Source of the DNA: Anaerolineales bacterium
Lineage (GTDB): Bacteria; Chloroflexota; Anaerolineae; Anaerolineales; UBA6663
NCBI GenBank assembly: GCA_020845955.1
Contig: JADLEU010000311.1
Coordinates: forward strand, 1 to 42,867
Length of the DNA: 42,867 bases
Reading direction: 5' to 3'
Part shown: positions 11,219 to 38,717 of the stretch, piece after piece
How the letters are laid out: each line of letters opens with the position of its first letter
Numbering within the stretch: the stretch's first letter is position 1
Program-made: the position numbers and the translations under genes
Notes under the pieces: generated by a model
What the model saw: the letters and a program-made list of their open reading frames with translations, nothing else
The model's database searches: none
What the model was told of the DNA's origin: nothing

Positions 11219-11231
11219 ACGCCGCCTGACA

Positions 11232-11237
11232 CTCCTC
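11232..11237 (-). promoter_or_regulatory. Ribosome binding site supporting the PKS start at 11218
   Basis: The minus strand reads GAGGAG here, 13 nt before the ATG at 11218 and downstream of the alternative GTG at 11248. The spacing is longer than ideal, but this is the best Shine-Dalgarno match near the N-terminus and supports the shorter start. Confidence 0.4.
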
Positions 11238-11285
11238 ACACCGCGCACTGGCGCTTGCGGGCGCCTTAGCCTTCATAGACTCGGA

Positions 11286-19900: not shown

Positions 19901-22900
19901 AGCGGCTGTTCTTCCCAGGCCAGCCGGTAGAACCAGCGGCTGATGGCCCGATCCTCCTCCGGCAATGTCACGTCGGCCACAGCCCGCAACCGAAGATCTT
20001 CGGCCGCCGCGATAATTTCGCCGTCCTGGTTCAGCAGCCAGGCACTGCCCTGGACGGACGCGGGCGCACCACCAGAACCATCCACGAAGCCGCTCAGGCG
20101 CGTGTAACACCACAGCGGCACAGCCGCGGGCGGCCGAGTGAACTGGCGCAGGGATCCCAGTGAGATGGGCAGAAACAGGTGGCCGGCCGTCTGCTGGCGC
20201 AGGCTTTCCGGCATGGCCGCGGCCAGCGCCTGGAAGGCGGCATCCAGCACGGCCGGGTGTAGTTGATATCCGCCCCCAACATCCGGAACGCTCAGGCGCA
20301 CCAGGGCCTCGCCCTGGCCTGTCCACACCTCGACCACGCGCCGAAAGGCGGGACCGTACTGCAGGCCGCGCGCGGCGAGGGCGCCATAGAAAGCCTCAGC
20401 CGTCGTGGGCTGTCCGAAGCGCTCCTGTATTCCCGCGAGCGTGCCCGGCCCAACCGCCGGGCTGGCGCCGCCTTCATCCAGGCATACGGACCCTCGCGCA
20501 TGCCGCGTCCATTCTCGCGCCCCATCGGCCGTCGCCACGTGAAACGCTGCCTGCCCTAACCCTTCGGCTGTGAGCACAAGCTGGGCCGCGACGTTGGCGC
20601 CGGCCGGCAGCGTCAGCGCCTCGTCGAACTGAACTCCCTCGAGGCGAAAAGGCCGGCCGCCGGCGAAGCGTGCCGCGGCGGCCAACGCCATTTCCACATA
20701 TCCGGCAGCCGGGAAGATCACCTGGCCTCGCACCCGATGGTCAGCCAGAAAAGGCAGTGCCTGGAACGACAGGCGGCCCTGCCACACATGCGTCTGGTCT
20801 TCGGTTGCCAGGAGGGTATGAGCGCCAAGCAGCGGATGCGCCTGGCTACCGCTATCGCCAGAAGGCGCCCGGCGAGCGGCTGTCGCGCCGGGTTCGAACC
20901 AGAAGCGCTCGCGCTGCCAGGGGTACGGCGGCAGCCAAACGACCGGCAGCGGCCGCGGGTACAGGCCCGACCAATCAACCGGGTAGCCGTGGGCGTGGAG
21001 CTGGCCCAGGCTGGCCAGCAAGGTCCCCCACTCGTCGGCGGCGCGGCGCATCGAAGCAGCCAGTACCATGGCCCGGCCATCGGCCGGCTGCATTTGGCCC
21101 AACGCCGGCAGCAAGACCGGGTGCGGGCTCAACTCCACAAATGTGAGGAACGATTCGGCCTGGAGCCGCGCCACGACTGGAGCGAAGAGGACCGGCCGGC
21201 GCAAGTTGTTGGCCCAATAGTGCGCGTCCATTTCTGGGCCGGCCAGGAGCTCGCCCGTGACGGTGGAATAGACGGGCAGCCGCGCCGGCTGTGGCCGGAT
21301 CGCCGCCAGCAGCTCGAGCAAAGGCTGGCGCAGCTTGTCGACCTGCGGGCTATGCGAGGCGACGTCTACTGTGACCCGGCGGCAAAAGACGCCGCGCGCC
21401 TGCAGATCGGCGAGCACTGCCTCCACCGCGACCGGCTCGCCGGACAAGACCACGCTGCGCGGCCCGTTGATCGCCGCCACGGCCACACGGTCGGACCGGC
21501 CGGCCAGGCAGGCCTCGGCCTCTTCAGCTGTGAGCTCGACCAGCACCATCATGCCATTTCCGCTGATCTGGCGCAGCAGCCGGCTCCGCCCACAGATTAC
21601 CCGGCTCGCATCTTCTAGAGAAAGCACGCCGGCAATATGCGCGGCGGCCACCTCGCCCATGCTGTGGCCGATCACGGCCGCCGGCTCAACGCCCATCTCG
21701 CGCCAAAGCGCCGCCAGAGCGACGGAAAGGGCGAACAGCACTGGCTGGATCACGTCGATGTGATCGGGCAGCTGGCTGGCGAACAGGACTTCGACCAAGT
21801 CCCAGTCGACAAAGGGCCGAAAGGCAGCGCTGGTCTGCTCCAATGAGCGGCGGAAGACCGGCTGCTGCGCAAACAGCTCGCGCCCCATGCCCAGCCACTG
21901 CGAGCCCTGGCCTGGGCACACGAAGACCACTCTCTCGGGATGACCCACGGCCACGGCGCCGGTTTCCAGCCGGGGATCGGCCTCACCGGTCAGGAACCTG
22001 TTCAGCAGCTCGCGCGCCTGAGCGGATGACGCCGCCACCAGGGCCAGCCGTTGGTCCAGGTGCGTCTGCCGCCGAGCGGCGGTGCAGCACACGGCCTCGA
22101 AGTCCTGGCCTTCATCAAGCCAGTTGCTCCAGCGGCGGACCGTTTCCGCCAACGCCTCACCTGTGCGAGCCGATAGGAGCAGCAAGCGCGGCAGCGCGGC
22201 GGGCGGCTGGGTGGGCGCCTCCGGCTGCCGCGCCCCATCTGCTTCTCGCGGCGCCGCAGGTCTTGTCGCCTCCGCTCGTGCCTCGATTTCGGCCGCGCTC
22301 GCCAGCACAACATGGGCATTGGCGCCCCCAAAGCCAAACGAACTGATACCCGCGACCGCTCGTTCACCCGCCCGCGGCCACGGCTCCAATTCGGCCTGAA
22401 CCCGCAGCGCGAGCTCATCAAAGGGAATGAGCGGGTTGGGCGCCTCGAAATGCAGGCTGGCCGGCAACTGCTGGTGATGCAGGGCCAACGCGACCTTCAC
22501 CAGCCCGGCGACTCCGGCAGCCGCCTCGAGATGGCCCACGTTCGTCTTGACCGAGCCAATCCGCAAGGGATGCGCCCCAGTTGCATTGCCAGCATCGGCG
22601 CGCCGCACGGCAGCCAGGGCTTTAGCCTCAATCGGATCGCCCAGCAGCGTTCCCGTTCCGTGAGCCTCCACGTAAGACAGGTCGGCGGCCCGCACGCCAG
22701 CGTCGCGATAGGCGGCCTGCAGCACCTCTTCCTGCGAGCGCGGGTTAGGCGCCATCAGCCCGTTCGTCCGCCCGTCCTGGTTGATGGCGCTGCCGAGGAT
22801 CACAGCGTAGATCCGGTCGCCGTCGGCCTGGGCCCGGGCAAGCGGCTTGAGCACAACTACCCCTACGCCCTCGCTGCGCACATAACCGTCGGCTCGAGCG

Positions 22901-23949
22901 TCGAACGCCTTGCACCGGCCGTCGGCGGCCATTGCCCCGGCCTCATTGAAGTTCACAGTCACTGCCGGCGTCAGGATGAGGTTGGCGCCGGCGGCCACTG
23001 CCAAGCTCGCCTCGCCGGCGCGCAAGCTGCGGCAGGCGAGGTGGACGGCGACGAGCGACGACGAGCAGGCCGTGTCGATGGCCAGGCTCGGGCCGCGCCA
23101 ATCGAAATAGTAGGAGAGGCGGTTAGCCGCCACGCTCAGAGCGCTGCCGGTCGCGAAGTAGCCGTTGACTTGGTCAATCCGGCTCATCTGGGCCTGGCCA
23201 TACTCGCTGCCGGAGATGCCGACGTACACCCCCACGGGTTGCCCAGCCAGCTGGTTCACCGGCATCCCGGCGTTGGCCAGCGCCTCCCAGGTCACCTCCA
23301 GCAGCATCCGCTGCTGCGGGTCGATGTGGACGGCCTCGCGGCCCGAGATCCCAAAGAAGGCGGCGTCGAATTCATCGACCCGTTCCAGGAAGCCCCCCCA
23401 AGGCGCCAGCGCCTTCTTTTCGGCGAGCTGGACAGCGAGCTGGTCGATATCCCAGCGCCCGTCCGGCACCTTGCGGATGCAGTCCTTTCCCTGGACCAGC
23501 GCCTGCCAGAAGGCCTCCAGGCTGTCTGCGCCTGGGAAGCGCACGGCCATGCCTACGATGGCAATGGGCTCGCGCGAGGTCACCGGGAACGGCGCCGCGG
23601 CGGGCGCCCACGCCTGGCTGGTGTCCTGCGCGCCGGACAACTCAAGGTTCGCTGGGGCGCCTTTTGCGCGGCCCATCGCCGTTGGGCTGCCGGCCGCCTT
23701 GGCCGCCGCTAAATAAGCGGACAGGGCACGAATTGAAGGGTGCTCATAGAGCAGCACCGGAGACAGATCGATGCCCAGCCATTCCTCCAGGTCACCGGAA
23801 AGCATCACGACCTCGCGCGAGCTGAGGCCGAAGCTTTCGAACGGCGCCAGGGGGTCGAGCACGTCCGGGGCCAGGCCGAAGTCAGCGATCAGCCGGCCCA
23901 TCATCCACGCTTCGATCGCGCCAGCAGAGAAGGACGCCTCTGTCAGCAT
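16969..23949 (-). CDS. Type I PKS, ACP-KS-AT-DH-ER-KR-ACP (acyl-loading and fully reducing module)
   Basis: This 2326-residue protein starts with its own carrier domain (about 5-85, Ser44 in FGLSS). That is the arrangement used when a FAAL loads a fatty acid directly onto the first PKS. KS (about 128-550) has Cys295. AT has Ser763 (GHSMGE), HIDVIQP and VASH ending at His866, a methylmalonyl-like pattern. DH is canonical, with His1071 (HRVRGQVIFPAAG) and Asp1236 (HPAVLDAAFQ). ER spans about 1575-1885 with nucleotide-binding HSAASGTG near 1708. KR reads VGGLGALG near 1912, has LDD (B-type) and Tyr2072. The last ACP has Ser2234 (LGFDSL). Together these predict one fully saturated, probably alpha-methylated extension. 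Its ATG overlaps the FAAL stop by 7 nt (23943-23949), strongly linking the two proteins. Confidence 0.96.
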   Translation of the reverse strand: MLTEASFSAGAIEAWMMGRLIADFGLAPDVLDPLAPFESFGLSSREVVMLSGDLEEWLGIDLSPVLLYEHPSIRALSAYLAAAKAAGSPTAMGRAKGAPANLELSGAQDTSQAWAPAAAPFPVTSREPIAIVGMAVRFPGADSLEAFWQALVQGKDCIRKVPDGRWDIDQLAVQLAEKKALAPWGGFLERVDEFDAAFFGISGREAVHIDPQQRMLLEVTWEALANAGMPVNQLAGQPVGVYVGISGSEYGQAQMSRIDQVNGYFATGSALSVAANRLSYYFDWRGPSLAIDTACSSSLVAVHLACRSLRAGEASLAVAAGANLILTPAVTVNFNEAGAMAADGRCKAFDARADGYVRSEGVGVVVLKPLARAQADGDRIYAVILGSAINQDGRTNGLMAPNPRSQEEVLQAAYRDAGVRAADLSYVEAHGTGTLLGDPIEAKALAAVRRADAGNATGAHPLRIGSVKTNVGHLEAAAGVAGLVKVALALHHQQLPASLHFEAPNPLIPFDELALRVQAELEPWPRAGERAVAGISSFGFGGANAHVVLASAAEIEARAEATRPAAPREADGARQPEAPTQPPAALPRLLLLSARTGEALAETVRRWSNWLDEGQDFEAVCCTAARRQTHLDQRLALVAASSAQARELLNRFLTGEADPRLETGAVAVGHPERVVFVCPGQGSQWLGMGRELFAQQPVFRRSLEQTSAAFRPFVDWDLVEVLFASQLPDHIDVIQPVLFALSVALAALWREMGVEPAAVIGHSMGEVAAAHIAGVLSLEDASRVICGRSRLLRQISGNGMMVLVELTAEEAEACLAGRSDRVAVAAINGPRSVVLSGEPVAVEAVLADLQARGVFCRRVTVDVASHSPQVDKLRQPLLELLAAIRPQPARLPVYSTVTGELLAGPEMDAHYWANNLRRPVLFAPVVARLQAESFLTFVELSPHPVLLPALGQMQPADGRAMVLAASMRRAADEWGTLLASLGQLHAHGYPVDWSGLYPRPLPVVWLPPYPWQRERFWFEPGATAARRAPSGDSGSQAHPLLGAHTLLATEDQTHVWQGRLSFQALPFLADHRVRGQVIFPAAGYVEMALAAAARFAGGRPFRLEGVQFDEALTLPAGANVAAQLVLTAEGLGQAAFHVATADGAREWTRHARGSVCLDEGGASPAVGPGTLAGIQERFGQPTTAEAFYGALAARGLQYGPAFRRVVEVWTGQGEALVRLSVPDVGGGYQLHPAVLDAAFQALAAAMPESLRQQTAGHLFLPISLGSLRQFTRPPAAVPLWCYTRLSGFVDGSGGAPASVQGSAWLLNQDGEIIAAAEDLRLRAVADVTLPEEDRAISRWFYRLAWEEQPLAAPAGDPRGGAWLLFARSGGWLPDLPRQLSANGCQCLFVFPGAAFDQLDSASYRLSAAEPDHFRALLRAVGAGVDAVAGIVYGWGLAADADEAAEEGTRAVVGALHLAQALAASGWRQAPRLYVLAGGPAGAPLAGLAATLNHEHPEFRCTVLDLGVNAGPSVSEAIVRECLAGSIERQVAFKGGQRYVGRLRPHQPSAAHGWQRPAAPASGQPRRLQAHQPGLLDSLCLAPMERRTPAAGEVEIAVQAAGLNFLDLLSAMGDRPDQPEAALALGLECAGRVTAVGDGVTDLQAGDDVVALAPGAFASFATTRAELVARRPAGLGWEAAATLPVAFLTAYYALCPVGRVQAGERVLIHSAASGTGLAAVRVAQWLKADIYATAGSEERRAYLRSLGVRHVFDSRSLAFVEGVRQATGGDGVDVVVNSLSGEAIPASLSLLRPRGRFIELGKRDLYARRKVGLYALRRNLSVSVVDLAGLAVEDRAYVGRLLRELLLLFERGALEPLPHECFALADAYAAFRQMAQARHHGKVILQVAAGESLVSGQYRRGSGPAPAVRPDGSYLIVGGLGALGRRVAAYLVAQGARNLVLAGRGAPSAAALVEFQALEAAGASVRVVQANAASAADMQALFARFEADGAEPAAANGPAAQRFPPLRGIFHAAGVLDDGVVLRQTAERFEAVMAPKATGSWLLHRLSLAHPVEVFVLFSSAAALLGSPGQASYAAGNAFMDGLARYRQAQGLPALSIQWGPWADIGLAARPDRAARLSHRGFDTIPADQGLRALDWALAETEPVLAVMPFDVRQWRQSFPQAAALPLVSTLAAGDLAEAQPAGGLLRAELQSTASAKERRALLEKYLRREIATVLRVPTSRIGPAAALDSLGFDSLLALELRNRLELSLAVRLSATLIWRYPTLPALVSYLASIVEAQPAPDRPDIGSLGPMRVEPVPAGARDAGQAILAEVEDLSDEAALRELIGD

Positions 23950-25655
23950 AGCTCGAGGGCGCCAGACAGATAAGCAGCGCGGCAGGCCCGGCGCTGGATC
24001 TTGCCGCTGGAGGTCTTCGGAAGGGTCCGCGGCTTGATAAAGGCCACGTCGTCGAGGCGCACGCCGTGCTCGGCCGAGAGCGATTGGCGGATGGCCTGAG
24101 CGACCTGGCTTGGATCCAGCGCGCCGTTCGAAGCGCCGCGCTGCTCCAGCTCGGCCACGACGACCAACCGTTCCTGGCCTTCGCGATCCACCGAAAAGGC
24201 CGCGGCACCGCCCGGGCGCAGGGCGGGATGGGCCCCCTCGACGGTCACCTCGAGATCCTGCGGGTAGTGATTGCCGCCATCGATAATGATCAGGTCTTTG
24301 ATGCGGCCGGCGATGTAGAGCTGGTCGTCATGAAAGAAACCCAGATCGCCAGTCCGCATGAAGGGCCCTTCGCCTGTGCCGGCGATCCGGGCCTGGAAAG
24401 TCGCCGCCGAAAGTTCTGGCTGTTGCCAGTAGCCGGCAGCGACGTTCTCGCCAGCGACCCAGATCTCGCCGACCTCGCCGGGCGCGCACGCCTGCTGGGT
24501 CTCTGGATGCACAATGCGCACGCTCTGGCCGCCTAGAGAAGCTCGACCACACCCGACCAGGGTAAGCGCGGCCTGGCCGTCCACGGCCGGGGCCAGGCGC
24601 TTCTTTTCGAACTCAGCCGCCTCCACCTGGTAAAAGGCCGGGCGCTGTTCTCGGCTGAACGAGACGACCAGGGTCGCCTCGGCCAGGCCGTAGCACGGCC
24701 GCATGGCCTCCGGGCGGAACCCGTACGGCGCGAAGGCCTCAATAAACGCCCGGATCGTCGCCGGCCGCACCGGCTCGGCCCCGTTGGCCGCCACCCGCCA
24801 CGAGCTCAAGTCGAGCCCCTCGCAGGCCGCCGGGGTCGCCTTGCGCGCCGCCAGAGCGTAGGCGAAATCGGGCGCGGCGCTATAGTAGCCCCCATAGCGC
24901 GAAATGGCCTTGAGCCAACGCGTCGGCCGCTGCAGGAAGGCGGCCGGCGGCATCAGCACCGAGCGGCTGCCGACGTAAGCCGTCAGCACCACCATGGAGA
25001 TCAGGCCCATGTCGTGGAAGAGCGGCAGCCAGCTCACGCCCACCGTATCACGCCCGACCTGCAGCGCCTGGATGAGCATCTCACAGTTGCCTACCAGGTT
25101 GCCATGGGTCACCATGACACCCCGCGGCGCTCCGGTCGAACCGGAGGTGTACTGCAGAAAAGCCACCGTGTCGCGTTCCAGAGCAGGCATCCGCCATGGG
25201 TCAGCCCAGGCCGGCTCGACGGCATCGGTGGCCAGCCAGCGAAAAGGCGGCCGATCGGGGCTGGCCTCCGCCCAGGTGTCGAAGCGCGGCAGGAGCTGGC
25301 TGGTCGTCAAGATCATCTGCGCCTGGGCATCCTCGGCAATGCTCTTGATGCGCAGCAGGTGGCGGGCCTTCACTGGCTCGACGACCGGCACGGCGATCAC
25401 GCCGGCGTACAGGCACCCGAAGAATGCAGCCAGGAACTCCGCGCTCGTCGGGTAGATGAGAATAGCGCGCTCGCCGGGCCGCAGCTCGCTCTGCAGGCGG
25501 CCGGCAATCGCCCGCGCCTGGCAGTCCAGCTCGCGATAGGTCAGGTGGGTTTCCTGCTCGTCTCCGTCCGCGAGCAGGGTGTACGCAAGCGCGTCTCCAA
25601 GCGCCTCAACATTGGCCCTGGCCGCCTCGACGGTGTTGGTGAAGTAACGGCGCAT
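23943..25655 (-). CDS. Fatty acyl-AMP ligase (FAAL)
   Basis: This is a 570-residue member of the adenylate-forming family. It is expected to activate a fatty acid with ATP and pass the acyl-AMP to the N-terminal ACP of the next protein, priming the assembly line. The P-loop reads YTSGSTGAPRG near residues 168-178, followed by VMVTHGNL. The segment GEVGEIWVAGENVAAGYW and the C-terminal PKTSSGKIQRR with the late Lys are typical of FAALs. The length, and the direct overlap with a PKS that begins with an ACP, favour FAAL over a CoA ligase; the FAAL-specific insertion was judged by eye only. The ATG lies 1 nt after the stop of the UbiB-like gene, and the stop overlaps the PKS start (ATGCTGA), so all three are likely translated together. 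Chain length of the fatty acid cannot be read from the sequence. Confidence 0.94.
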   Translation of the reverse strand: MRRYFTNTVEAARANVEALGDALAYTLLADGDEQETHLTYRELDCQARAIAGRLQSELRPGERAILIYPTSAEFLAAFFGCLYAGVIAVPVVEPVKARHLLRIKSIAEDAQAQMILTTSQLLPRFDTWAEASPDRPPFRWLATDAVEPAWADPWRMPALERDTVAFLQYTSGSTGAPRGVMVTHGNLVGNCEMLIQALQVGRDTVGVSWLPLFHDMGLISMVVLTAYVGSRSVLMPPAAFLQRPTRWLKAISRYGGYYSAAPDFAYALAARKATPAACEGLDLSSWRVAANGAEPVRPATIRAFIEAFAPYGFRPEAMRPCYGLAEATLVVSFSREQRPAFYQVEAAEFEKKRLAPAVDGQAALTLVGCGRASLGGQSVRIVHPETQQACAPGEVGEIWVAGENVAAGYWQQPELSAATFQARIAGTGEGPFMRTGDLGFFHDDQLYIAGRIKDLIIIDGGNHYPQDLEVTVEGAHPALRPGGAAAFSVDREGQERLVVVAELEQRGASNGALDPSQVAQAIRQSLSAEHGVRLDDVAFIKPRTLPKTSSGKIQRRACRAAYLSGALELC

Positions 25656-27644: not shown

Positions 27645-29759
27645 CTACCCCACGTCCACGTCCTCCAGATGAAACAGGACACTGCGTGTGTTGATCAGAA
27701 AGAGCGCCAACAGCAGCAACTGGTACCACGGGTTGGACAGCAGCGCTTCGACCACGGCCGCTTGTGACGGCATCGCGCCGCTGAACGCCAGCCGCGCCAG
27801 CACGGTCGCGCCGGCGAACACGGCCGTGACCAACAACGCCTGGACGGCAAAGGCCACCAGGGAAAAGATGGCGCTCGAACCTTTGCCGATTAACGCGCTG
27901 AAATTGGCCGCCGGGATCGACAGCACATGGCGTAGGCGGGCGAAAAGGCCGTCGGTCATGTAGGCAAAGCGTTCCAGCCGGATATAAGTCTTCTGGTCAG
28001 AGCCCTTGTCGAGCTGCCGCTTGATATTCCGCATAACCCGCAGCCGCGCGCGCCGCGCGCGATAGCGGGCAAACCGGCGGTATTCCGGGACCAGGTCAAC
28101 GTCCGGATGCAGCCGGCCCGCCAAGGTGTCGGAGAACAGCATCGTCCGCAGCAGGCGGAGCGCCTGAAAGTCCATCGAGATCCCATACCGCGCGGCGACG
28201 CGAAAGACGCCAATCCACTGAATGGCCAAAGAGCGGTCCGCCCGCGACGGGTTGGCCAGGCTGCTGGCGCGCACGTAGAGCATCTGCCAGTTGTAGGCCT
28301 CCAGCTCCTTAGTGAACTCCAGGACATCGATTGGCGGCAGCGGTTCCAGCAGCGTGACCGTGGCGCGCGCCATACCCAAAGGGTCGTTCCTGTCCAGGTA
28401 ATACATGTTCTGGTGCATCGCGGCCCGCTTCTTGGGGTCGATCGCGCCAATCGCGCTGAACCCCAAGAACGTCAGCCGGCCGTTGCGGCCGATGATGATG
28501 TTGTCGGGGTGCGGATCGGCGTGGAAAAAGAAGTTCGCATCCCAGCCCCAGAAGTTGATCCACATCAGCCGCTGGGCCACTCGGACCGGATCGATGTTCA
28601 GCTCGCGGGCCAGCGCCAGCACGCGCTCATCCTGCTGCTCGATGCCGGCCAGCAGCTCCCACATCCACATGCCGCTGACAAACTCCTCGACGATGACGTC
28701 CTCGCCGGAATAGTCGAAGTAGATGCGCGGGGCCGTGAAGAAGCGCCTTCCCGAGCGCTTGGCGGCGCGGCGAAAGGAGTCTTGGAAGCGCGCCTCCTGG
28801 ACAAAGTCCAGGCTCCCCAGGATCGCCGAGCGGAACTCGTGCCGCATCTGCTGCGAAAAGCCAGGGCGCAGAATCGTCAGGTACTCAATCGCCAGCAAGA
28901 TCCAGTCGAGCACCAGCAGGTCGGCCATAAACAGTTCGCCCACCCCCGGCCGGCGCACTCGCACCACGACCTGCTGGCCATTGCGCAAGATCGCCTGGTA
29001 GACGCCGGCGACTGAATCAGAGCCGACCGGCTCCGGGTCAAAGCGGGCAAAGGTCTGCGCCAAGGGCTGGCCGGTCCGCCGCTCGATGGCAGCGATGGCG
29101 GCCGTGGCCGGAAAGGGCGGGACCTTGTCGAGCATCTGAGAGAGCTCGACGCAGTACACCCAGGGCAAGAAGTCCAGCCGCATGGCCAGGTACTGGCCGA
29201 TCTTCACGCCCGTCCCGCCGACGCGCTCAAAGGCCTGGCGCAGGCGCGCCGCCCGCCGCTCTGGCGTGCTCCGGCTCCTAATAGCGTCCAGCCAGTTGGC
29301 GCCAAGATAGCGCAGAAGCGTCACCAGCCAGACGACCAGGCGGCCGAATGCCTGGGCCGGCCGGGCCTCAAAGACCACTCGGCGCATCTTGGGCGGCGTT
29401 GTCTCACCACCGCGGATTTTCAGAAAGCGAGAGCGAGGCAGTGCCGCCAGGGCTCCGGGCTCAGCCGGGCCGGGCACCTTAAGGTCTGGCGCGGGCGCCG
29501 GGCGCCGGGAGCGACCATTCTGACGGTTGGCCACCCAGTCAGCGCGGCCCAGGCGGTGGGGCGGCGTGGGCTCAGCCTGTCGCCCATTCGTCCAGGCGCC
29601 GGGGGAAACCATACGCGGCGCCCCTGGCCGCTGGCCCTGGCGCCACAGGTCCACGCTCTGCGCGACTGATCGAGTGAGGCGCGCTCGTCGTTTGCTGAGG
29701 CCGGAGGACGACCGGCCAGGATGCGCCTCAGGCGGCAACAGGTTCACCTCAGCAGGCAT
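27645..29759 (-). CDS. UbiB/AarF (ABC1) family paralogue, predicted pseudokinase
   Basis: This 704-residue paralogue lies 26 nt upstream of the intact UbiB gene and has the same layout: hydrophobic segment near 140-160, VKIGQ, kinase-like core, two hydrophobic C-terminal segments, and the end pattern NTRSVLFHLEDVD. Three family residues are changed. The VAVK lysine is Arg267 (VVVRVRRPG), the Glu of the ELD motif is Ser316 (SLDF), and DFG reads GFS, with Gly433 for the Mg-binding Asp. HADPHPDN and KIGQ are kept. The frame is intact over its full length, so this looks like a preserved non-catalytic partner, not a decaying gene. The first about 120 residues are Pro/Arg-rich with no domain seen; Met125 is a possible shorter start. 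Function is unknown, and partnership with the intact copy is inferred from adjacency. Confidence 0.88.
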   Translation of the reverse strand: MPAEVNLLPPEAHPGRSSSGLSKRRARLTRSVAQSVDLWRQGQRPGAPRMVSPGAWTNGRQAEPTPPHRLGRADWVANRQNGRSRRPAPAPDLKVPGPAEPGALAALPRSRFLKIRGGETTPPKMRRVVFEARPAQAFGRLVVWLVTLLRYLGANWLDAIRSRSTPERRAARLRQAFERVGGTGVKIGQYLAMRLDFLPWVYCVELSQMLDKVPPFPATAAIAAIERRTGQPLAQTFARFDPEPVGSDSVAGVYQAILRNGQQVVVRVRRPGVGELFMADLLVLDWILLAIEYLTILRPGFSQQMRHEFRSAILGSLDFVQEARFQDSFRRAAKRSGRRFFTAPRIYFDYSGEDVIVEEFVSGMWMWELLAGIEQQDERVLALARELNIDPVRVAQRLMWINFWGWDANFFFHADPHPDNIIIGRNGRLTFLGFSAIGAIDPKKRAAMHQNMYYLDRNDPLGMARATVTLLEPLPPIDVLEFTKELEAYNWQMLYVRASSLANPSRADRSLAIQWIGVFRVAARYGISMDFQALRLLRTMLFSDTLAGRLHPDVDLVPEYRRFARYRARRARLRVMRNIKRQLDKGSDQKTYIRLERFAYMTDGLFARLRHVLSIPAANFSALIGKGSSAIFSLVAFAVQALLVTAVFAGATVLARLAFSGAMPSQAAVVEALLSNPWYQLLLLALFLINTRSVLFHLEDVDVG

Positions 29760-30855: not shown

Positions 30856-30884
30856 GTGGCATTCTCCTCGCCGGCTGCTATAAT
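30856..30884 (+). promoter_or_regulatory. Sigma70-like promoter for the KS-AT / NRPS / TEII arm
   Basis: A perfect TATAAT lies at 30879-30884, with GTGGCA (4 of 6 to TTGACA) at 30856-30861 and a 17-bp spacer. Transcription would start near 30891. This rules out the GTG at 30856 and makes the ATG at 30883 unlikely as starts, leaving the ATG at 30919 with a leader of about 28 nt. Confidence 0.6.
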
Positions 30885-30918
30885 GCAGCGCCATCGAACG
30901 GAGCGGACTGAACCCGAC

Positions 30919-33837
30919 ATGCCAAACAACCCCGGCCGCCCGGAACCGCTGTCGCCTGTCAAACAGGCGCTCTTGGCCGTTGAACAGTTGAAGGCTCGCC
31001 TGGCGGTGGCCGAGCGCCGGCAGCGTGAGCCGATCGCCATCGTCGGGATTGGCTGCCGCTTCCCCGGCCGGGCTCACTCCCCCCAAGATTTTTGGAACCT
31101 CCTGGCCACCGGGGCCAACGCGGTCACGCGCATCCCGGCCAACCGCTGGGACGCTGAGGCTTACTACGATCCCAATCCAGAGGCGCCCGGCAAAGCCTAC
31201 ACGACCTACGGCGCTTTCTTGGAGGGCATCGACGAATTTGATGCCCAGTTCTTCAGCATTGCGCCGATCGAGGCGGCCAGCATGGATCCGCAGCAGCGCC
31301 TGCTGTTGGAGGTCAGTTGGGAGGCCTTGGAGCATGGCGGCCTGGCCGGGGCATCGCTGAGGGGCAGCCGCACGGGAATCTTTACCGGTATCTGCAACAG
31401 CGACTACCTGCTGTACACGCTGGGGAGCCGCGACCCTCAGCGCGTCGACGCGTTTGCAGGGACCGGCTCGGCCAACAGCATCGCCGCCGGCCGCTTGTCC
31501 TATTTCTACGATTTCCACGGACCGAACTTCCCGATCGACACTGCCTGTTCGTCGTCCCTGGCGGCGCTGCACCTGGCGGTGCAGAGCCTGCGCAACCGGG
31601 AGTGCGACATGGCCCTGGCGGCTGGCGTGAGCGCGATGCTCGCGCCCGAGCCATACGTCTATTTTGCCAAGACCCGGGCGCTATCGGCCGGCCCGAAAAG
31701 CTACACCTTCGACGCCCGCGCCGACGGGTATGTCCGGGGCGAGGGCTGCGGAGTGCTGGTCTTGAAACGGCTGATTGACGCCGAAGCGGCCGGCGACCGC
31801 GTATTGGCGGTCATTCGGGGCACGGCCATGAACCACGACGGGCGCACGGGCGGCCTGACCGCCCCGAACGGCCCAGCCCAGCAAGACGTCATCCGGGCCG
31901 CGTTGGCTAACGCGGGGGTTGTCCCCGATGAGGTCACCTACGTCGAGACCCATGGCACCGGGACGCCACTGGGCGACCCAATCGAGGTACAGGCCCTGGG
32001 GGCGGCTTATCGGGCAGCGGCGCCTGCGAAGAAGCGCAAACTCTACATCGGCGCCGTGAAGACGAACATCGGCCACCTGGAAGGCGCGGCCGGGATCGCC
32101 GGGGCCATCAAGGCGGCCTTGATGCTCCACCACCGCGAGCTGGTGCCCCACCTCCATTTCGAACAGCCGAGCCCGCACATCCCCTGGGCAGACCTGCCGG
32201 TCGAGGTCGTCACCGCCCGGCGGCCCTGGCCGGCGGGCCAGCCGCTGCTGGCCGGCATTTCTGCCTTTGGCTTCAGCGGCACCAACGTGCACGTCATCAT
32301 GGAGGCTGCCTCGGAGCCCGCTGCCGGCGGGCGCGAGTCCGGGGCGCCCACGCGCCAGGCCTCCGCCTGGCTGGGAGAGGCCGCACGACCCCAGGTCGGC
32401 CGCCGCACGCACGTCCTCCCGATGTCAGCCCGCACTGTGACCGGACTCAAGCGCCTGGCAGGGCGCTACGCCGCGCATCTCCGGCAGCCCGCGGCGCCTC
32501 CGCTAGGAGATATCTGCCATACTGCGGCCATCGGCCGGGCTCACTTTCCGCACCGGCTGGCGGTCGTGGGCGCTGACGCAATCGAAATAGCCGAGCGACT
32601 GCAAGCCTTCGAGCAGGGAAATGGCAGTGCCCCAGGTCTCAGGGCACACCACGCCCGGCCGCAGGCGCCACCGCGCCTGGTTTTCCAGTTCTCCGGGCAG
32701 GGCGCCCAGTTCCCCGGGATGGGCCGCGATCTCTACGAAAGCGAGCCCCTCTTCCGCGCGAGGCTGGACGAGTGTGATCAACTCCTCCGGCCCCATCTGG
32801 ACATCTCGATCCGCGCCGCCATGTTCGGCGCGCCGCTCACGGGCAGCGCTGAAAAGGGGCCGCTTGCGCTGGACGAAACCTGGCTGGCCCAGCCGGCCCT
32901 GTTTGCCTTTGAGTATGCGCTGGCGAGCCTGTGGCGGTCGTGGGGCCTTGAGCCCGAAGCAGTGATCGGCCACAGCATCGGCGAGTACGTCGCCGCCTGC
33001 CTGGCTGGGGTCTTCACACTGGAAGACGCGCTGTACCTGGTGGCAGCCCGCGGGCGGCTGATGCAGGCGCTGCCGCGGGCTGGCGCGATGGTAGCCGCCT
33101 TCGCCCCCGAGACCCGGGTGGAGGCTGCCCTCGTTGGCAAGGTTGGCGTGGATATTGCGGCGGTCAACGGGCCAGATCACGTCGTCCTGTCCGGGGTCCG
33201 TGAGGCGGTGCTCGCGACGGCCGACGAGCTTGAAATCGCCGGGGTCGCTACGCGCTCGCTGCGCGTGTCGCACGCCTTCCACTCGCCGCTGATGGAACCC
33301 GTGCTGCAGGAATATCAGCGCATCGCCGCCGAGGTCGCCTATCATCCGCCGCGGCTGCCGATGATCGCCAACTTGACCGGCCGCTTCTTTGGGCCCGGCG
33401 AGGCGCCTGACACCGCGTATTGGACCCGCCATGTGCGGCAGACCGTACGTTATTTTGATGGCTTACAGACCCTTGTCGCCGGCGGGTACAGCCTCTTCGT
33501 GGAAGTCGGGCCCAGGGCCGTGCTCACGGATCTGGGCCAGCACATCGCGCCCGAGGCGGGGCACTGGCTGGCCTCCTGCCGGCCTAACCACCAAACGGCG
33601 CTGTATGACAGCCTGGCCGCGCTCTACGGGCATGGCTGCCCGATTGACTGGGAGGCCGTCTACCCGCGCGGCCAGCACAGGCGGGTTGACCTGCCCACCT
33701 ACCCCTTCGAGCACAAACGCTACTGGCTCGATCGGACGGCTGCGGCCCAGCCCCAGGCGGCGGCCACCCCCGCCCCGGCGGCCCGCAACGGCAGCGGCGC
33801 CTCGCTACTCAATGCCTTTGTCGATGTGCTGGAATGA
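30919..33837 (+). CDS. Type I PKS fragment module, KS-AT only
   Basis: This protein is about 972 residues from the ATG at 30919, chosen because the promoter overlaps the earlier in-frame starts. A helical docking segment (about 12-35, LSPVKQALLAVEQLKARL) leads into KS with Cys210 (DTACSSS), HGTGT and NIGH. AT has Ser686 (GHSIGEYVAA) and HAFH ending at His788, the standard malonyl-CoA signature. There is no KR, DH, ER or carrier domain. The protein ends soon after the AT linker with an Ala/Pro-rich tail (ending FVDVLE). The missing carrier is supplied by the N-terminal ACP of the next gene, 49 nt downstream, so the module is split between two proteins. The expected product is an unreduced beta-keto unit passed to the NRPS part. 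It probably accepts the chain from the minus-strand PKS series. Confidence 0.94.
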   Translation: MPNNPGRPEPLSPVKQALLAVEQLKARLAVAERRQREPIAIVGIGCRFPGRAHSPQDFWNLLATGANAVTRIPANRWDAEAYYDPNPEAPGKAYTTYGAFLEGIDEFDAQFFSIAPIEAASMDPQQRLLLEVSWEALEHGGLAGASLRGSRTGIFTGICNSDYLLYTLGSRDPQRVDAFAGTGSANSIAAGRLSYFYDFHGPNFPIDTACSSSLAALHLAVQSLRNRECDMALAAGVSAMLAPEPYVYFAKTRALSAGPKSYTFDARADGYVRGEGCGVLVLKRLIDAEAAGDRVLAVIRGTAMNHDGRTGGLTAPNGPAQQDVIRAALANAGVVPDEVTYVETHGTGTPLGDPIEVQALGAAYRAAAPAKKRKLYIGAVKTNIGHLEGAAGIAGAIKAALMLHHRELVPHLHFEQPSPHIPWADLPVEVVTARRPWPAGQPLLAGISAFGFSGTNVHVIMEAASEPAAGGRESGAPTRQASAWLGEAARPQVGRRTHVLPMSARTVTGLKRLAGRYAAHLRQPAAPPLGDICHTAAIGRAHFPHRLAVVGADAIEIAERLQAFEQGNGSAPGLRAHHARPQAPPRLVFQFSGQGAQFPGMGRDLYESEPLFRARLDECDQLLRPHLDISIRAAMFGAPLTGSAEKGPLALDETWLAQPALFAFEYALASLWRSWGLEPEAVIGHSIGEYVAACLAGVFTLEDALYLVAARGRLMQALPRAGAMVAAFAPETRVEAALVGKVGVDIAAVNGPDHVVLSGVREAVLATADELEIAGVATRSLRVSHAFHSPLMEPVLQEYQRIAAEVAYHPPRLPMIANLTGRFFGPGEAPDTAYWTRHVRQTVRYFDGLQTLVAGGYSLFVEVGPRAVLTDLGQHIAPEAGHWLASCRPNHQTALYDSLAALYGHGCPIDWEAVYPRGQHRRVDLPTYPFEHKRYWLDRTAAAQPQAAATPAPAARNGSGASLLNAFVDVLE

Positions 33838-33886: not shown

Positions 33887-36800
33887 ATGCTGATGGAAGC
33901 CAAGTCTGCCAGGCCAAGCGCCCCCCACAGGGCCAGTATTCGCGATCAATTGCGGGACATCGTCGCCACAGCCCTGGGACTCGACGTGGCGGACGTGGAT
34001 TTGGAGGCGCCCTTCATCGACCTGGGGGCCAGCTCGCTGGCACTGGTGGACGCTTTCCGCGCCATCTACGAGTGCTTCGGCGTCCGGCCCTCGATTCGCA
34101 AGGTCTTCGACGAGTACGACTGCATTGAGCGACTGGCCGACTACGTGCTGGAGCTCTTGGCCACTCAGCCAGCTGTCGATCCCGAGCAAGTCAGGGCCGA
34201 ACGGCGGGCCGCGCTGCAGGCGCAGGACGGGCAGGCGTTCACGACGCTGCCGCTGACGGCGGCCCAGACCCACCTGTGGTTCCTGGCCGCGTACTCCGAC
34301 GGCGCGATGCTGGCGCATACGCACCGCATTGCGCTGCAGGTAACTGGTCCGCTGGATGCCGCGGCATTGCGCCGAGCGTTCCAGGCGGTGGCGGACCGGC
34401 ACCAGGCGCTGAGGCTTGTCTTCGACACGGCTGAGGCGCAGCGGGTCGCGCTTGAGCGCCCGGTGTCGCTGGAGGTGGTCGACTTCGCCGGTCAACCGGA
34501 CGAGGCGCGGCTGGCAGCCGCCGGCGACTGGCTGCGCACTGAAGGCCGCCGGCCCTTCGAGCCAGCGGACTCGCTATGGCGCGCGGCCCTGCTGCGCCTG
34601 CGACCCGAGCGCCACCTGCTGATCGTCAGCGCCCACGCCCTGGTGGCCGACGAACCAGCCCTGCAGCGCCTGCTCGCCGAAGTGGCAGCAGTCTACACCT
34701 CCTGGATCAACGGCGCGGCGCCCGCGCTGGAGGCGGCTGTGCCGTTTCAGGCCTACGTCGACGCCTTGGCTGAACACGCAAACCAACCGCAGTACGCGCG
34801 CTCGCGCGAATTCTGGTCGGGGGTGTATGCCGACGGCATTCCCTCGGTCGACCTGGCCGCCTGGCAGAACCGGCCGCCAGTCAAAAGCTACGCCGGGACC
34901 CGGCTGGTCGTGCCCCTCCCAGCCGCGCTGGGCCAGGCGCTGCAAGACTGGAACACCGCTCACAAGGGCTCTCCGTACGTCACGCTGTTGGCTGCCTTTC
35001 AGCTCTGGCTCCAGCGCATGAGCGGGCAAGATGATCTGGTCGTCGGCGTCATGAGCCGCGGCAGCACTCTGTTGCCGCGGGCCGGCTCGCTCATCGCCAA
35101 TACGACGAATCCCCTGCCCATGCGCACGCGGGTTGACGCCGCGGCGCCATTTGCCGACCTTGTCCAGAAGGTGCAGGACAGCCTGCTCACCGCCTTCGAT
35201 TACCAGGACTATCCTTTCTCGGCCATCATCCAGGATCTGGATCCCGAGCGCGACCAGAGCCGCTCGCCAGTTTTCACCGTGGCCTTTGACTGGCAGCCCG
35301 AAGCCGCCCGGCTGGACTTTGGCGGCCCGAGCGCCCAGCCGATCACGGCGCCGATCCAGTACGTGCCATACGATTTGTTCCTGACCGTGATCGAGGTCAG
35401 CGGCCAGATGCAGCTCCAGTGCGACTACAGCACCGAGCTGTTCGACTCGGCCACGATCCGCCGCTGGATGAACTCCTTCCGGACGTTATTGGCCGCGTGC
35501 CTCGAGCCGCAGGCCAGGCCTATGGCCCAGTTGCCCATGCTGACCCTCGAGGAGCGCCGGCAGATGCTCGTCGAGTGGAACGACACGGCGCGCGCTTACC
35601 CCAACGACATTTGCGTCCATCAACTACTCGAGGCCCAGGCGGCCAGGACACCCGGGGCCGTAGCCCTTGTCGACCGCCGATGCGAATTGACCTACGCCGA
35701 GCTGAACGACGCGGCTGAGCAGATCGCTGCCAGCCTGCGCCAGGCTGGCGTGGTCCCGGGCGCCTTTGTCGCCGTGTGCCTCGACCGCTCATCCGGCGCG
35801 CTGGCCAGCCTGTTGGGCGTTCTCAAGTCCGGCGGCGCCTATGTCTTTCTCGATCCTGCTTTTCCCGTGGAGCGGCTGGCCTTCATGCTGCAGGACTCCC
35901 AGGCCGCGATCCTCGTGACGGAGAGTGAGTGGCGCGACCGCTTCCCAGGCTATGCGGGGCAGACCTTCCTGCTCGACGGGCTGGCCCTGGCGCGGCAGGG
36001 CAAAGCGCCGGCTTCCGGGCCAGCCGCCAACCGCGCGCTCGCGCTGTCCTCCGGCCACCCGGCCATGATGATCTACACTTCCGGGTCCACTGGCCGTCCC
36101 AAGGGCGTGCTCATCGCCCACCGCGGTGTGGTCAACCTCCTTCACGCGGTCACGGCCGAGCCTGGCCTGTCGCCTGGGGACCGCCTGCTGGCCGTCACCA
36201 CGCTGTCGTTCGACATCGCCGGACTGGAGATCTATCTCCCCTTGATGATCGGCGCGACGGTCGTGCTGGCCAGCCGGGACGACGCGTCTGATGGCGAACG
36301 ACTGCTGGCGCTGCTGCAGCGCTCGGGGGCGACGGTCATGCAGGCAACGCCGGCCACCTGGCAGATGCTGCTGGCGGCCGGCTGGCAAGGCGACGGCCGC
36401 CTGAAGATGCTGTGCGGCGGCGAGGCCATGTCGCGCCAACTGGCCGACGCGTTGTTGGCCCGGGGCGGTTCGCTCTGGAACCTCTACGGGCCGACGGAGA
36501 CGACCATCTACTCCACCGGGCACAAGGTCGAGAAACGCGATGGCGCGGCGCCCATTGGCCGGCCTCTCGCCAACACCCAGCTTTACGTGCTGGACAGGCA
36601 CCTGCAGCCCGTGCCGATCGGCGTCCCCGGCGAGCTCCTGATTGGCGGCGATGGCGTCAGCCCGGGTTACTGGCAGCGCCCGGAGCTAACGGCCGAGAAG
36701 TTCGTGCCTAATCCGTTTGTGGAGGCCGCGCCCGGCCAGCCGCGGCCCAAACTCTACCGGACCGGCGACCTGGTGCGCTACTTGCCGAACGGCGACGTGG

Positions 36801-38647
36801 CCTATCTCGGCCGGATGGACTTTCAGGTCAAGATCAAGGGTTTCCGGATCGAGTTGGGCGAGGTGGAAAGCGCGCTCGGCGCTCACCCGGCCGTGGGGCG
36901 CAGCGTGGTCGTGGCCCGCGACGACGACCACGGGCGCAAGTACCTCGCCGCATACTTCCTCGTGCGCGATGGGCAGGCTCCGCCGGCCACGACCGAGCTG
37001 CGCGCGCACCTGTCCGAGCGTCTGCCAGAATACATGATCCCGGCGGCCTTTGTGCCGTTGGAAGCATTCCCACTGACGCCGAATGGCAAGGTCAACCGCA
37101 GGGCCTTGCCGGCGCCAGAGCGCGGCCTGCGCGCCGGTCTCGATCGGGCTTACGCCGCCCCGCGCAACCGGGTCGAGGAAATTCTGTGCCGCATCTGGGG
37201 CGAGGTGTTGAGCCTGGAAAAGGTCGGCATCCACGACAACTTCTTCGACCTGGGCGGCCATTCGCTGCTGCTGACGCCGCTGGTGCTGAAGCTGCGCGAG
37301 TACTTCCAGCTCCGGATCAGCATGCGCGAGTTCTTTTCACGGCCAACGGTCGCCGAGCTGGCTGAAATGATCGCCGAAGCGCGCGGCCACGCCCCGGCGG
37401 GCGGCAACGGCCATTGGATCAGCCCCACCCTGCGCCAGGACGGGCCCGAGGCCAAGGCCCGCTTTGACTTCCTGCGCGCGGAGGCGCGGCTGGACCCAGC
37501 GCTCCAGCCAAAAGGGCAGCCGTACGCGGCCAAGGCCGGCCTGGAACGCTTGTTTATGACCGGCACCACCGGTTTCGTCGGCGCCTACTTGCTGCGCAAC
37601 TTGATGGAGCAGACGGACGTTGTCCTCTACACTCTGGTGCGGGCCGACGACGAGGCGGCCGGGCTGGCGCGCATACGCCGGCAGGCGAGCAAGCTAGGCC
37701 TGTGGCAGGAACATTACCAGGACCGCCTGCGGGTCATCACCGGCGATGTGAGCCAGCCGCGGCTGGGCCTGGAAAAAAAGACGTACCAACGCCTGGCGGG
37801 CGAAGTCGACGCGGTTCTCCATTCGGCCGCGGTCGTCAACTTCATCTACCCCTATCAGGCGATGAAGGCCGTCAACGTTGAGGGGGTGCGCCGGGTGATC
37901 GAGTTTGCCTTCGAGGGCCAGGTCAAGCCCGTCCACTACCTCTCGACCACCGCCATCTGGCCCATGGGGGCCCACCGGACGTTCACGGAGGCGATGGACC
38001 TCGATCACGATTTGCTCCTGAACCTGGCCTACGACGAGACCAAGTGGGTGGCCGAAAAGATGCTGCGCGAGGCGGCCAGCCGCGGCCTGCCCCTGGCGGT
38101 CTACCGGCCGGGCGAGGTCTCCGGCGACAGCCGGACCGGTTTCTCCGACCTCTCGCACCTGGCCAGCGCCCTGCTGAAGGGCTCGATCCAGGCCGGCATG
38201 TTTCCGGCACTCGACTCTTTCCTGGATGCGGCGCCGGTGGACTACGTGGCCCAGGCCATTGTTTACCTGATGACCAGGCGCCAGCCACTGGGCCGGGCCT
38301 TCCACCTGTGCAACCCGCGGCCCATGCACGCCCACGACGGCTACACTTGGCTGCGGAAACGCGGCTACACCTTTGGCGTGATTCCGTTTGACGAGTGGCG
38401 CTGGCGCATCTTGACCGACGACGCGTTTCCAGAGAACGCGCTGTATCCGTTCGCGGCGCTGCTCGAGGAGTTTACGGAGCTCAGCCTGCAGCTGCCGGTC
38501 TGGGATACCGCGGCGACAGTGAAAGAGTTCGCGGGGAGCGAGGTCGCCTGCCCGCCCCTCGACGAAGCGCTGGCCGACGTGTACCTGCGTTACTTTATTG
38601 AGGCAGGCTACCTCCCCACGGCCGAGGCCATGGCGGCTGTCCGCTGA
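33887..38647 (+). CDS. Hybrid NRPS, ACP-C-A(Gly)-PCP-thioester reductase
   Basis: This 1586-residue protein has an N-terminal carrier (Ser50 in GASS) completing the preceding KS-AT module. C (about 115-560) has an atypical core, AHALVADE with His250, in place of HHxxxDG. In A (about 585-1075), YTSGSTGRPKG lies near 730, GPTETTIY and the A10 motif NGKVNRRALP are present, and pocket positions read by eye give D-I-L-Q-L-G-L-I-Y plus the A10 Lys, one difference from the glycine code DILQLGLIWK. PCP has Ser1126 (GGHSLL). R (about 1220-1586) has TGTTGFVG, STTAIW, and Tyr1382/Lys1386 (YDETK), the catalytic set of NAD(P)H-dependent thioester reductases. It should condense the polyketide acid with glycine and release the product as an aldehyde or, after a second reduction, an alcohol. 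No TE domain is fused. Confidence 0.95.
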   Translation: MLMEAKSARPSAPHRASIRDQLRDIVATALGLDVADVDLEAPFIDLGASSLALVDAFRAIYECFGVRPSIRKVFDEYDCIERLADYVLELLATQPAVDPEQVRAERRAALQAQDGQAFTTLPLTAAQTHLWFLAAYSDGAMLAHTHRIALQVTGPLDAAALRRAFQAVADRHQALRLVFDTAEAQRVALERPVSLEVVDFAGQPDEARLAAAGDWLRTEGRRPFEPADSLWRAALLRLRPERHLLIVSAHALVADEPALQRLLAEVAAVYTSWINGAAPALEAAVPFQAYVDALAEHANQPQYARSREFWSGVYADGIPSVDLAAWQNRPPVKSYAGTRLVVPLPAALGQALQDWNTAHKGSPYVTLLAAFQLWLQRMSGQDDLVVGVMSRGSTLLPRAGSLIANTTNPLPMRTRVDAAAPFADLVQKVQDSLLTAFDYQDYPFSAIIQDLDPERDQSRSPVFTVAFDWQPEAARLDFGGPSAQPITAPIQYVPYDLFLTVIEVSGQMQLQCDYSTELFDSATIRRWMNSFRTLLAACLEPQARPMAQLPMLTLEERRQMLVEWNDTARAYPNDICVHQLLEAQAARTPGAVALVDRRCELTYAELNDAAEQIAASLRQAGVVPGAFVAVCLDRSSGALASLLGVLKSGGAYVFLDPAFPVERLAFMLQDSQAAILVTESEWRDRFPGYAGQTFLLDGLALARQGKAPASGPAANRALALSSGHPAMMIYTSGSTGRPKGVLIAHRGVVNLLHAVTAEPGLSPGDRLLAVTTLSFDIAGLEIYLPLMIGATVVLASRDDASDGERLLALLQRSGATVMQATPATWQMLLAAGWQGDGRLKMLCGGEAMSRQLADALLARGGSLWNLYGPTETTIYSTGHKVEKRDGAAPIGRPLANTQLYVLDRHLQPVPIGVPGELLIGGDGVSPGYWQRPELTAEKFVPNPFVEAAPGQPRPKLYRTGDLVRYLPNGDVAYLGRMDFQVKIKGFRIELGEVESALGAHPAVGRSVVVARDDDHGRKYLAAYFLVRDGQAPPATTELRAHLSERLPEYMIPAAFVPLEAFPLTPNGKVNRRALPAPERGLRAGLDRAYAAPRNRVEEILCRIWGEVLSLEKVGIHDNFFDLGGHSLLLTPLVLKLREYFQLRISMREFFSRPTVAELAEMIAEARGHAPAGGNGHWISPTLRQDGPEAKARFDFLRAEARLDPALQPKGQPYAAKAGLERLFMTGTTGFVGAYLLRNLMEQTDVVLYTLVRADDEAAGLARIRRQASKLGLWQEHYQDRLRVITGDVSQPRLGLEKKTYQRLAGEVDAVLHSAAVVNFIYPYQAMKAVNVEGVRRVIEFAFEGQVKPVHYLSTTAIWPMGAHRTFTEAMDLDHDLLLNLAYDETKWVAEKMLREAASRGLPLAVYRPGEVSGDSRTGFSDLSHLASALLKGSIQAGMFPALDSFLDAAPVDYVAQAIVYLMTRRQPLGRAFHLCNPRPMHAHDGYTWLRKRGYTFGVIPFDEWRWRILTDDAFPENALYPFAALLEEFTELSLQLPVWDTAATVKEFAGSEVACPPLDEALADVYLRYFIEAGYLPTAEAMAAVR

Positions 38648-38666: not shown

Positions 38667-38717
38667 GTGAAAGGATTGGCATATCCGGCAGCTCGAGCGA
38701 GTTCACATGACCGCTGA
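38667..38717 (+). other. Possible 16-codon leader ORF overlapping the TEII start
   Basis: A GTG at 38667 follows GAGGAGG (38657-38663) and opens a 16-codon frame (MKGLAYPAARASSHDR) whose TGA at 38715-38717 lies just past the TEII ATG at 38707. TEII has no strong ribosome site of its own, so re-initiation is possible. This is weak evidence: spacing from the GAGGAGG is tight and the ORF is very short. Confidence 0.2.

Follow-up and report, generated by a model that had tools for sequence, protein, structure and literature searches.

Two adjacent genes in the window, which is the whole 42,867-nt stretch analysed and makes up an entire contig (C311) of a draft genome of 6.06 Mb, encode proteins of the ABC1/UbiB family, one with an intact active site (copy A) and one with a degenerate active site (copy B). 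The presence of 15 distinct pairs, low dN/dS values and mirrored trees together show that the pair is ancient and has been kept. The UbiB family itself is known; a pair with one degenerate copy in a setting of polyketide synthase (PKS), non-ribosomal peptide synthetase (NRPS) and fatty acyl-AMP ligase (FAAL) genes appears to be new.

Organization of the window and active-site residues of the pair

The start codon of A lies 26 nt past the stop of B and a gap of 1 nt separates A from the FAAL gene (Table 1), so that B, A and FAAL look co-transcribed. The two copies are 41% identical across 650 columns. Both match Pfam ABC1 (186.6 bits for A and 142 bits for B, cut-off 22.9), and both fall below the cut-off of 487.55 bits for the NCBIfam UbiB equivalog TIGR01982 (217.2 and 189.6 bits, respectively). 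A third ABC1 gene in the same genome (contig C319) encodes an ordinary UbiB with intact motifs. Genome G001, which belongs to the same family, also has a separate ordinary UbiB besides its pairs.

Table 1. Features of the window, and FHA-ABC exporter genes at three other loci
Feature	Coordinates	Strand	Basis or remark
Type I PKS, KS-AT-DH-KR-ACP	5582..11248	(-)	
Type I PKS, KS-AT-DH-KR-ACP	11286..16958	(-)	
Type I PKS, KS-AT-DH-ER-KR-ACP	16969..23949	(-)	
Fatty acyl-AMP ligase (FAAL)	23943..25655	(-)	1 nt past A stop
Copy A, intact ABC1/UbiB, 653 aa	25657..27618	(-)	ORF and Pfam ABC1
Copy B, degenerate ABC1/UbiB, 704 aa	27645..29759	(-)	ORF and Pfam ABC1
B Gly433-Phe-Ser435, replaces DFG	28455..28463	(-)	
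B HADPHPDN, residues 413-420	28500..28523	(-)	intact in the window, broken in several other B copies
B Ser316, replaces ExD Glu (COQ8A Glu405)	28812..28814	(-)	alignment
B Arg267, replaces VAVK Lys (COQ8A Lys358)	28959..28961	(-)	alignment
B Asp248, site of COQ8A Ala339 (Ala-rich loop)	29016..29018	(-)	alignment to COQ8A
DUF6312-like small basic helical-looking protein, 149 aa	29895..30344	(-)	adjoins B upstream; 27.3 bits, cut-off 27
Divergent KS-AT protein	30856..33837	(+)	relatives at nine further pair loci likewise diverge from the pair
NRPS, condensation-adenylation-carrier-thioester reductase	33887..38647	(+)	
Thioesterase	38707..39486	(+)	
Rv1747-like FHA-ABC exporter	L023 4955-8242		Chloroflexota PKS/NRPS cluster
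Rv1747-like FHA-ABC exporter	L027 13805-17101		Chloroflexota PKS/NRPS cluster
Rv1747-like FHA-ABC exporter	L032 4858-7767		Chloroflexota PKS/NRPS cluster

An earlier, sequence-only reading of this DNA had described three lesions in B, and these were borne out: Arg267, Ser316 and Gly433 of B stand opposite Lys220, Glu269 and Asp386 of A. The glutamate that it had placed in an ‘ELD’ motif is indeed lost from B, but it corresponds to COQ8A Glu405 of the UbiB-specific ExD motif; the residue equivalent to the αC salt-bridge glutamate, COQ8A Glu411, is retained in B as Glu322. Both open reading frames, the KIGQ and HADPHPDN motifs of B and the C-terminal R..LF.L.D.D pattern common to A and B were also as described. 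A further lesion, absent from the earlier reading, is Asp248 at the Ala-rich-loop alanine position of B.

All of the motifs of the ABC1/UbiB family (KxGQ, the Ala-rich loop, ExD, H.DPHP.N and DFG) are present in copy A. Copy B has the ABC1 match and a COQ8-like fold, with the Ala-rich loop, the ExD glutamate and DFG missing; both its fold and its sequence mark it as a divergent ABC1/UbiB relative that lacks these functional motifs. A pseudokinase has been defined as a kinase fold that lacks at least one conserved nucleotide-binding or catalytic motif (PMC4718504). Having lost the equivalents of both Lys358 and Asp507, the window B therefore falls within this definition as far as its sequence is concerned.

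We also noted a column that sets apart the A, B and ordinary UbiB groups. At residue 372 of A, within the HADPHPAN motif, the A copies have alanine, two ordinary UbiBs have glycine and the B copies mostly have aspartate or asparagine.

Distribution of the pair

We found 15 distinct pairs, that of the window and those of 14 further loci, and the genes were always adjacent in the order B then A. The 14 loci (labelled L0xx) came from a contig scan with a six-row alignment (A1), and every one has two tandem copies; a contig scan with a single B sequence as the query gave no match. The named sources are metagenome-assembled genomes (MAGs) from Anaerolineae, Anaerolineales and other Chloroflexota, a Candidatus Aquidulcis-labelled MAG (L039) and one Acidobacteria MAG (L028). 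At these 14 loci the first in-frame start of A lies between 20 nt before and 63 nt after the B stop. B is full length everywhere except at L037, where the frame is broken at a position at which the record carries unknown bases; we treated this as an assembly gap.

The distribution of the pair is rare and patchy. In the order scan 7 of 301 genomes were positive, each with at least two copies. One of these, G001 (Anaerolineales MAG SJ819), has two pairs, which match L026 and L038 at 100% identity, and the five matches beyond the window and G001 are likewise identical to contig-scan loci. Two class scans gave 2 positives in 298 genomes and 3 in 396, the scan of the order to which genome G298 belongs gave 2 in 56, and the phylum scan gave 1 in 151, which was the window only. 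These samples overlap, and all of the pair counts are lower bounds because the genome scans are samples and the contig scan needs two peptide patterns, by which L043 was missed.

This last locus, in G298, holds one lone copy, in which every motif is intact and which has a DUF6312-like gene on its upstream side; G298 has other ABC1 candidates, none of which reached an E-value of 1e-60. No lone B was found in the contig and genome scans, nor any A without B except the single intact L043.

Loss of ATP-cleft residues in copy B

Active-site motifs were tabulated for the 15 A copies, the 15 B copies, L043 and 12 ordinary UbiBs from related genomes. KxGQ, the Ala-rich-loop alanine, the VAVK lysine, the ExD glutamate, the αC glutamate, HxDPHPxN and DFG are kept in 15/15 A copies, in L043 and in 12/12 ordinary UbiBs. 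The checked catalytic residues are not all kept in any of the B copies (0/15), a contrast that exceeds chance. The ExD aspartate is replaced by asparagine in two A copies, two B copies and one ordinary UbiB.

The equivalent of Ala339 is alanine in 15/15 A copies and is lost in 15/15 B copies, where serine (five), threonine (five), asparagine (three) or aspartate (two) is found instead. The other losses are less uniform. The DFG glycine is lost in 13/15 B copies and the DFG aspartate (Asp507) in 9/15, being kept in the other six; the full DFG is intact in only two. The KxGQ glutamine is lost in 11 of 14 (L037 is unreadable at this site), the second histidine of HADPHP in 8/15 and the first in 5/15, Asn493 in 5/15 and Asp488 in 3/15. 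Lys358 and the ExD glutamate are each lost in two copies, so that the lysine is kept in 13/15, and Glu411 is kept in all 15. At least one of Lys358, Asp488, Asn493 and Asp507 is lost in 14/15 B copies, differing between lineages. The GFS sequence proved not to be conserved in orthologues: glycine in the DFG aspartate position is confined to the window, and the common lesion is that of the Ala-rich-loop alanine.

Parsimony on the tree gives one event for the loss of Ala339, at least four for Asn493, four for the first histidine, three for the KxGQ glutamine, at least three for Asp507 and two for Asp488. These counts point to one founding change, at the alanine, after which different catalytic residues were lost independently in different lineages. 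ATP binding or use may persist in some B copies, as the residues retained at two loci suggest. The L035 B has lost the Ala339 equivalent, the KxGQ glutamine and the DFG glycine but keeps Lys358, Glu411, Asp488, Asn493 and Asp507, and the L027 B lacks only Ala339 and Asp488 among the checked residues.

The losses in B are concentrated in the ATP cleft. Among the 48 columns that do not vary across the A copies, L043 and two ordinary UbiBs, that of Ala339 is the only one to be retained in no B copy. Mean retention in B is 66% in the 18 cleft-motif columns and 95% in the other 30 (p = 2e-4, assuming independent columns, with the 18/30 split set from known motifs after the table had been seen).

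Selection and phylogeny

Both copies are under purifying selection, with dN/dS values for B (0.04-0.27) like those for A. By a simple NG86 count over six locus pairs, the values for A and B, respectively, were 0.258 and 0.265 (window-L022), 0.045 and 0.039 (L029-L031), 0.062 and 0.042 (L032-L036), 0.134 and 0.099 (L037-L039) and 0.066 and 0.101 (L029-L033); L030-L034 was saturated and gave no value.

The A-A and B-B distances are closely correlated (r = 0.977, reached by 0 of 5000 permutations), and the B distances are longer in 104 of 105 comparisons, at 1.31 times those of A. The mirrored trees could also have arisen if the cluster had been transferred as a unit. All of the B rows group together in the tree (99/97), with L043 on the branch between the A rows and the B rows. 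The branch to the ordinary-UbiB outgroup is very long (3.96 changes per column as drawn), and its root was left unused.

The sequence-only reading had proposed an active/inactive-looking pair that is preserved together, and had allowed for a one-off sequence error or recent decay. The latter is answered by the 15 pairs, the purifying selection on both copies and the mirrored trees, and the idea of a preserved pair is strengthened by this comparative evidence. The heteromeric complex with a regulatory subunit that the same reading suggested would be part of the model discussed below.

Predicted structure of copy B

An AlphaFold2 model of B from 15 alignment rows was poor (pLDDT 56.6) and was set aside in favour of one from 30 rows (pLDDT 74.8, pTM 0.65), in which most of the kinase-like domain has a pLDDT above 80. 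This domain spans residues ∼168-572 and is followed by a C-terminal helical hairpin at ∼626-699 (helices 626-660 and 677-699), which in the model looks as if it may be membrane-embedded. The nearest solved fold is that of COQ8A (5i35; Z 25.7, rmsd 4.2, 362 aligned), followed by other near folds such as MSMEG_1954/Rv3197, with RIO kinases at Z 12.3 and below. Given this ranking, the predicted structure makes it very likely that B keeps the UbiB fold, including the N-terminal KxGQ extension.

Genes that accompany the pair

A DUF6312-like gene lies directly upstream of B at 14 of the 15 pair loci, the exception being L028, and is also present at the single-copy locus L043. The encoded protein is basic and helical-looking, with an invariant core around SA..K.DGA. 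A motif common to this protein and the N-termini of A and B was unsupported: the best match scored 1.3 bits (L043) against shuffle maxima of up to 4.1 (20 shuffles), with several weak matches on the same model positions.

PKS, NRPS or FAAL genes are found in the flanks of 14/15 pair loci. PKS genes occur at 11/15, FAAL genes at four (window, L022, L032 and L036) and an NRPS piece at L027. Directly downstream of A, 10/15 loci have a gene for an FHA-ABC exporter (the L038 protein and nine others that are 55-64% identical to it), and a 32-33% identical relative is located elsewhere in the flanks of L032 and L036. The L023, L027 and L032 proteins have an Rv1747-like architecture, with FHA, ABC ATPase and ABC2 membrane domains in one chain, and nine more FHA-ABC proteins were found by blastp at 32-64% identity. 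No FHA-ABC exporter was seen in the flanks of the window and L022, and the window has no exporter of any kind within its 42,867 nt. The 12.6 kb contig of L028 has no PKS, NRPS, FAAL or FHA-ABC gene and has an ABC-GAF ATPase, a MacB-like permease and an HlyD-like gene. The flank of L043 holds a FAAL, a PapA-like acyltransferase, a cNMP-binding ABC ATPase and a MacB-like permease. From these tallies, what recurs is a combination of genes for lipid-type assembly with an exporter gene. The genome of the window has FHA-ABC genes at two other places, beside PKS genes and with no ABC1 neighbour; the exporter therefore needs no pair and belongs to such clusters generally.

Several further genes in these neighbourhoods were noted. 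Sensor-fused ABC ATPases, with cyclic-nucleotide-binding or GAF domains, lie near the ABC1 genes of L043 (5067-6602) and L028 (3390-4829); sensor-bearing exporters recur near ABC1 genes and the type of sensor varies. PapA-like acyltransferases of the phthiocerol dimycocerosyl transferase type are present with FAAL genes near ABC1 at L032 (7745-9070) and L043 (1785-3077), which hints at a wax- or PDIM-like product. A radical SAM protein at L029 (3437-4879) is encoded between PKS and NRPS genes divergent from the pair; its relatives at six other loci are 77-99% identical and mark one conserved cluster type. A Wadjet JetA-type protein is encoded at L023 (17854-19254), near the second pair of G001.

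Discussion

We favour, with a probability of about 0.5, a reading in which A is an ATPase and B its non-catalytic partner in a membrane-associated UbiB machine working for a lipid-type PKS/NRPS pathway. What the comparison establishes is the pair itself, its age, the selection on it, the concentration of losses in the cleft and the kind of cluster in which it occurs; we infer that A and B associate physically, that A is an active ATPase and B is inactive, that they handle lipid and that their work is linked to export. A single intact UbiB-like gene would have been duplicated in tandem to give A and B. B would have lost the Ala-rich-loop alanine at its origin and then other ATP-cleft residues lineage by lineage, while it kept its fold and stayed paired with A. 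A would hydrolyse ATP to move or present a hydrophobic product or intermediate at the membrane. This is the role proposed for COQ8, as the ATPase activity of Coq8 is described as possibly coupled to the membrane extraction of hydrophobic CoQ precursors (PMC8346625). Bound to A, B might tune the activity of A or form part of a lipid-binding platform, by analogy with Fam20C, which is reported to be activated by its degenerate paralogue Fam20A (PMC4718504). Neighbouring ABC exporters would then take the product over. In a more specific and tentative form, an obligate ATPase/pseudo-ATPase UbiB pair might act with the DUF6312-like protein to extract PKS/NRPS lipids and pass them to sensor-bearing ABC exporters, the former ATP cleft of B having taken on a regulatory or lipid-binding function that began with the loss of the Ala339 equivalent.

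SelO looks like a pseudokinase yet transfers AMP, and B could similarly be not dead but a UbiB enzyme with changed chemistry and altered nucleotide use, which we consider rather unlikely. Ala339 of COQ8A is reported to control nucleotide preference, and its replacement by glycine to shift that preference and permit autophosphorylation (PMC4718504); it is this site that is altered in every B copy, while Lys358 is kept in most and Glu411 in all. However, if a new chemistry were conserved, the same set of residues should be kept throughout, and catalytic or metal-binding residues (Asp507, Asn493 and Asp488) are lost from B in varied combinations, which argues against it. Separate action of A and B, in opposition on the same lipid and with no complex, has a precedent in the yeast UbiB proteins Cqd1 and Cqd2, which are described as reciprocally controlling CoQ distribution (PMC8346625). 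That source also says that both need canonical active-site residues, which B has lost, and the strict adjacency of B and A at 15/15 loci is more than opposition needs; we find this model unlikely.

The downstream position of the FHA-ABC gene at 10/15 loci could mean that the pair is a protein-kinase switch of the exporter, with A phosphorylating an FHA-bound threonine. In Mycobacterium tuberculosis pknF and Rv1747 are described as sharing a two-gene operon, the kinase acting as a modulator of the exporter (PMC3908365). In COQ8A, a kinase-like fold in which the KxGQ and ExD elements are reported to occlude the substrate pocket (PMC4718504), these are elements that A retains, and the FHA gene is not constant: it is missing from the flanks of the window and L022, and GAF- or cNMP-bearing ABC ATPases occur instead at other pair or single loci. 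For these reasons such a phospho-switch is less likely than the ATPase/partner reading, and indeed improbable. That B is merely a decaying duplicate carried within a mobile biosynthetic cluster seems very improbable. Its lost catalytic residues and its longer distances would fit decay, but its dN/dS values are those of A, it is full length everywhere except at L037, 95% of the core columns outside the cleft are kept, and A occurs without B only as the single intact L043.

How UbiB/COQ8 proteins use ATP is still disputed, and a naturally kept pair with one cleft-degenerate member offers a direct handle, enabling ATP turnover and lipid binding to be compared for A alone, B alone and A plus B. 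The pair also links UbiB proteins with natural-product clusters of the lipid type and their exporters, beyond ubiquinone synthesis. Within the open-access literature searched on UbiB/AarF pseudokinases and on UbiB or AarF in PKS clusters, titles and abstract openings describe no such pair; subscription papers lay outside this scope.

Among known systems, the UbiB/COQ8 (ADCK3) family, PF03109, is matched by the ABC1 hits of A and B, the motifs of A and the fit of the B model to COQ8A with AMPPNP (5i35). Unlike that family, the genes here are tandem paralogues, one of them degenerate, in PKS/NRPS/FAAL clusters and below the UbiB equivalog cut-off. MABP-1 (Rv3197, MSMEG_1954) is also a bacterial ABC1 protein, and among PDB sequences both A and B match it best (5yjz), but by their structure titles the MABP-1 proteins were solved singly, some with ligands, and those titles name no degenerate partner. 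Like most of the pair loci, Rv1747-PknF has an FHA-bearing ABC exporter gene beside a kinase-fold gene (PMC3908365), and we counted three FHA stretches in the L023, L027 and L032 proteins; here, however, the neighbours are a UbiB pair rather than a Ser/Thr protein kinase, and no FHA-ABC gene lies beside the pair of the window. Cqd1 and Cqd2 are likewise two UbiB proteins that act on the distribution of one lipid, but in the account of PMC8346625 both require canonical residues and no tandem operon is involved. The UbiB paralogues COQ8A (ADCK3) and COQ8B (ADCK4) have been proposed to form a heteromeric complex (PMC12193262). ATPase activity has been measured for COQ8B (PMC7615680), whereas B lacks active-site residues. 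A mechanistic analogy is offered by Fam20A-Fam20C, STRAD-LKB1 and HER3-EGFR, in each of which a degenerate kinase-fold protein is described as kept beside an intact one (PMC4718504). Those pairs are eukaryotic and belong to other kinase families, and the complex formation and activation that are reported for them would, for A and B, be parts of the model proposed here.
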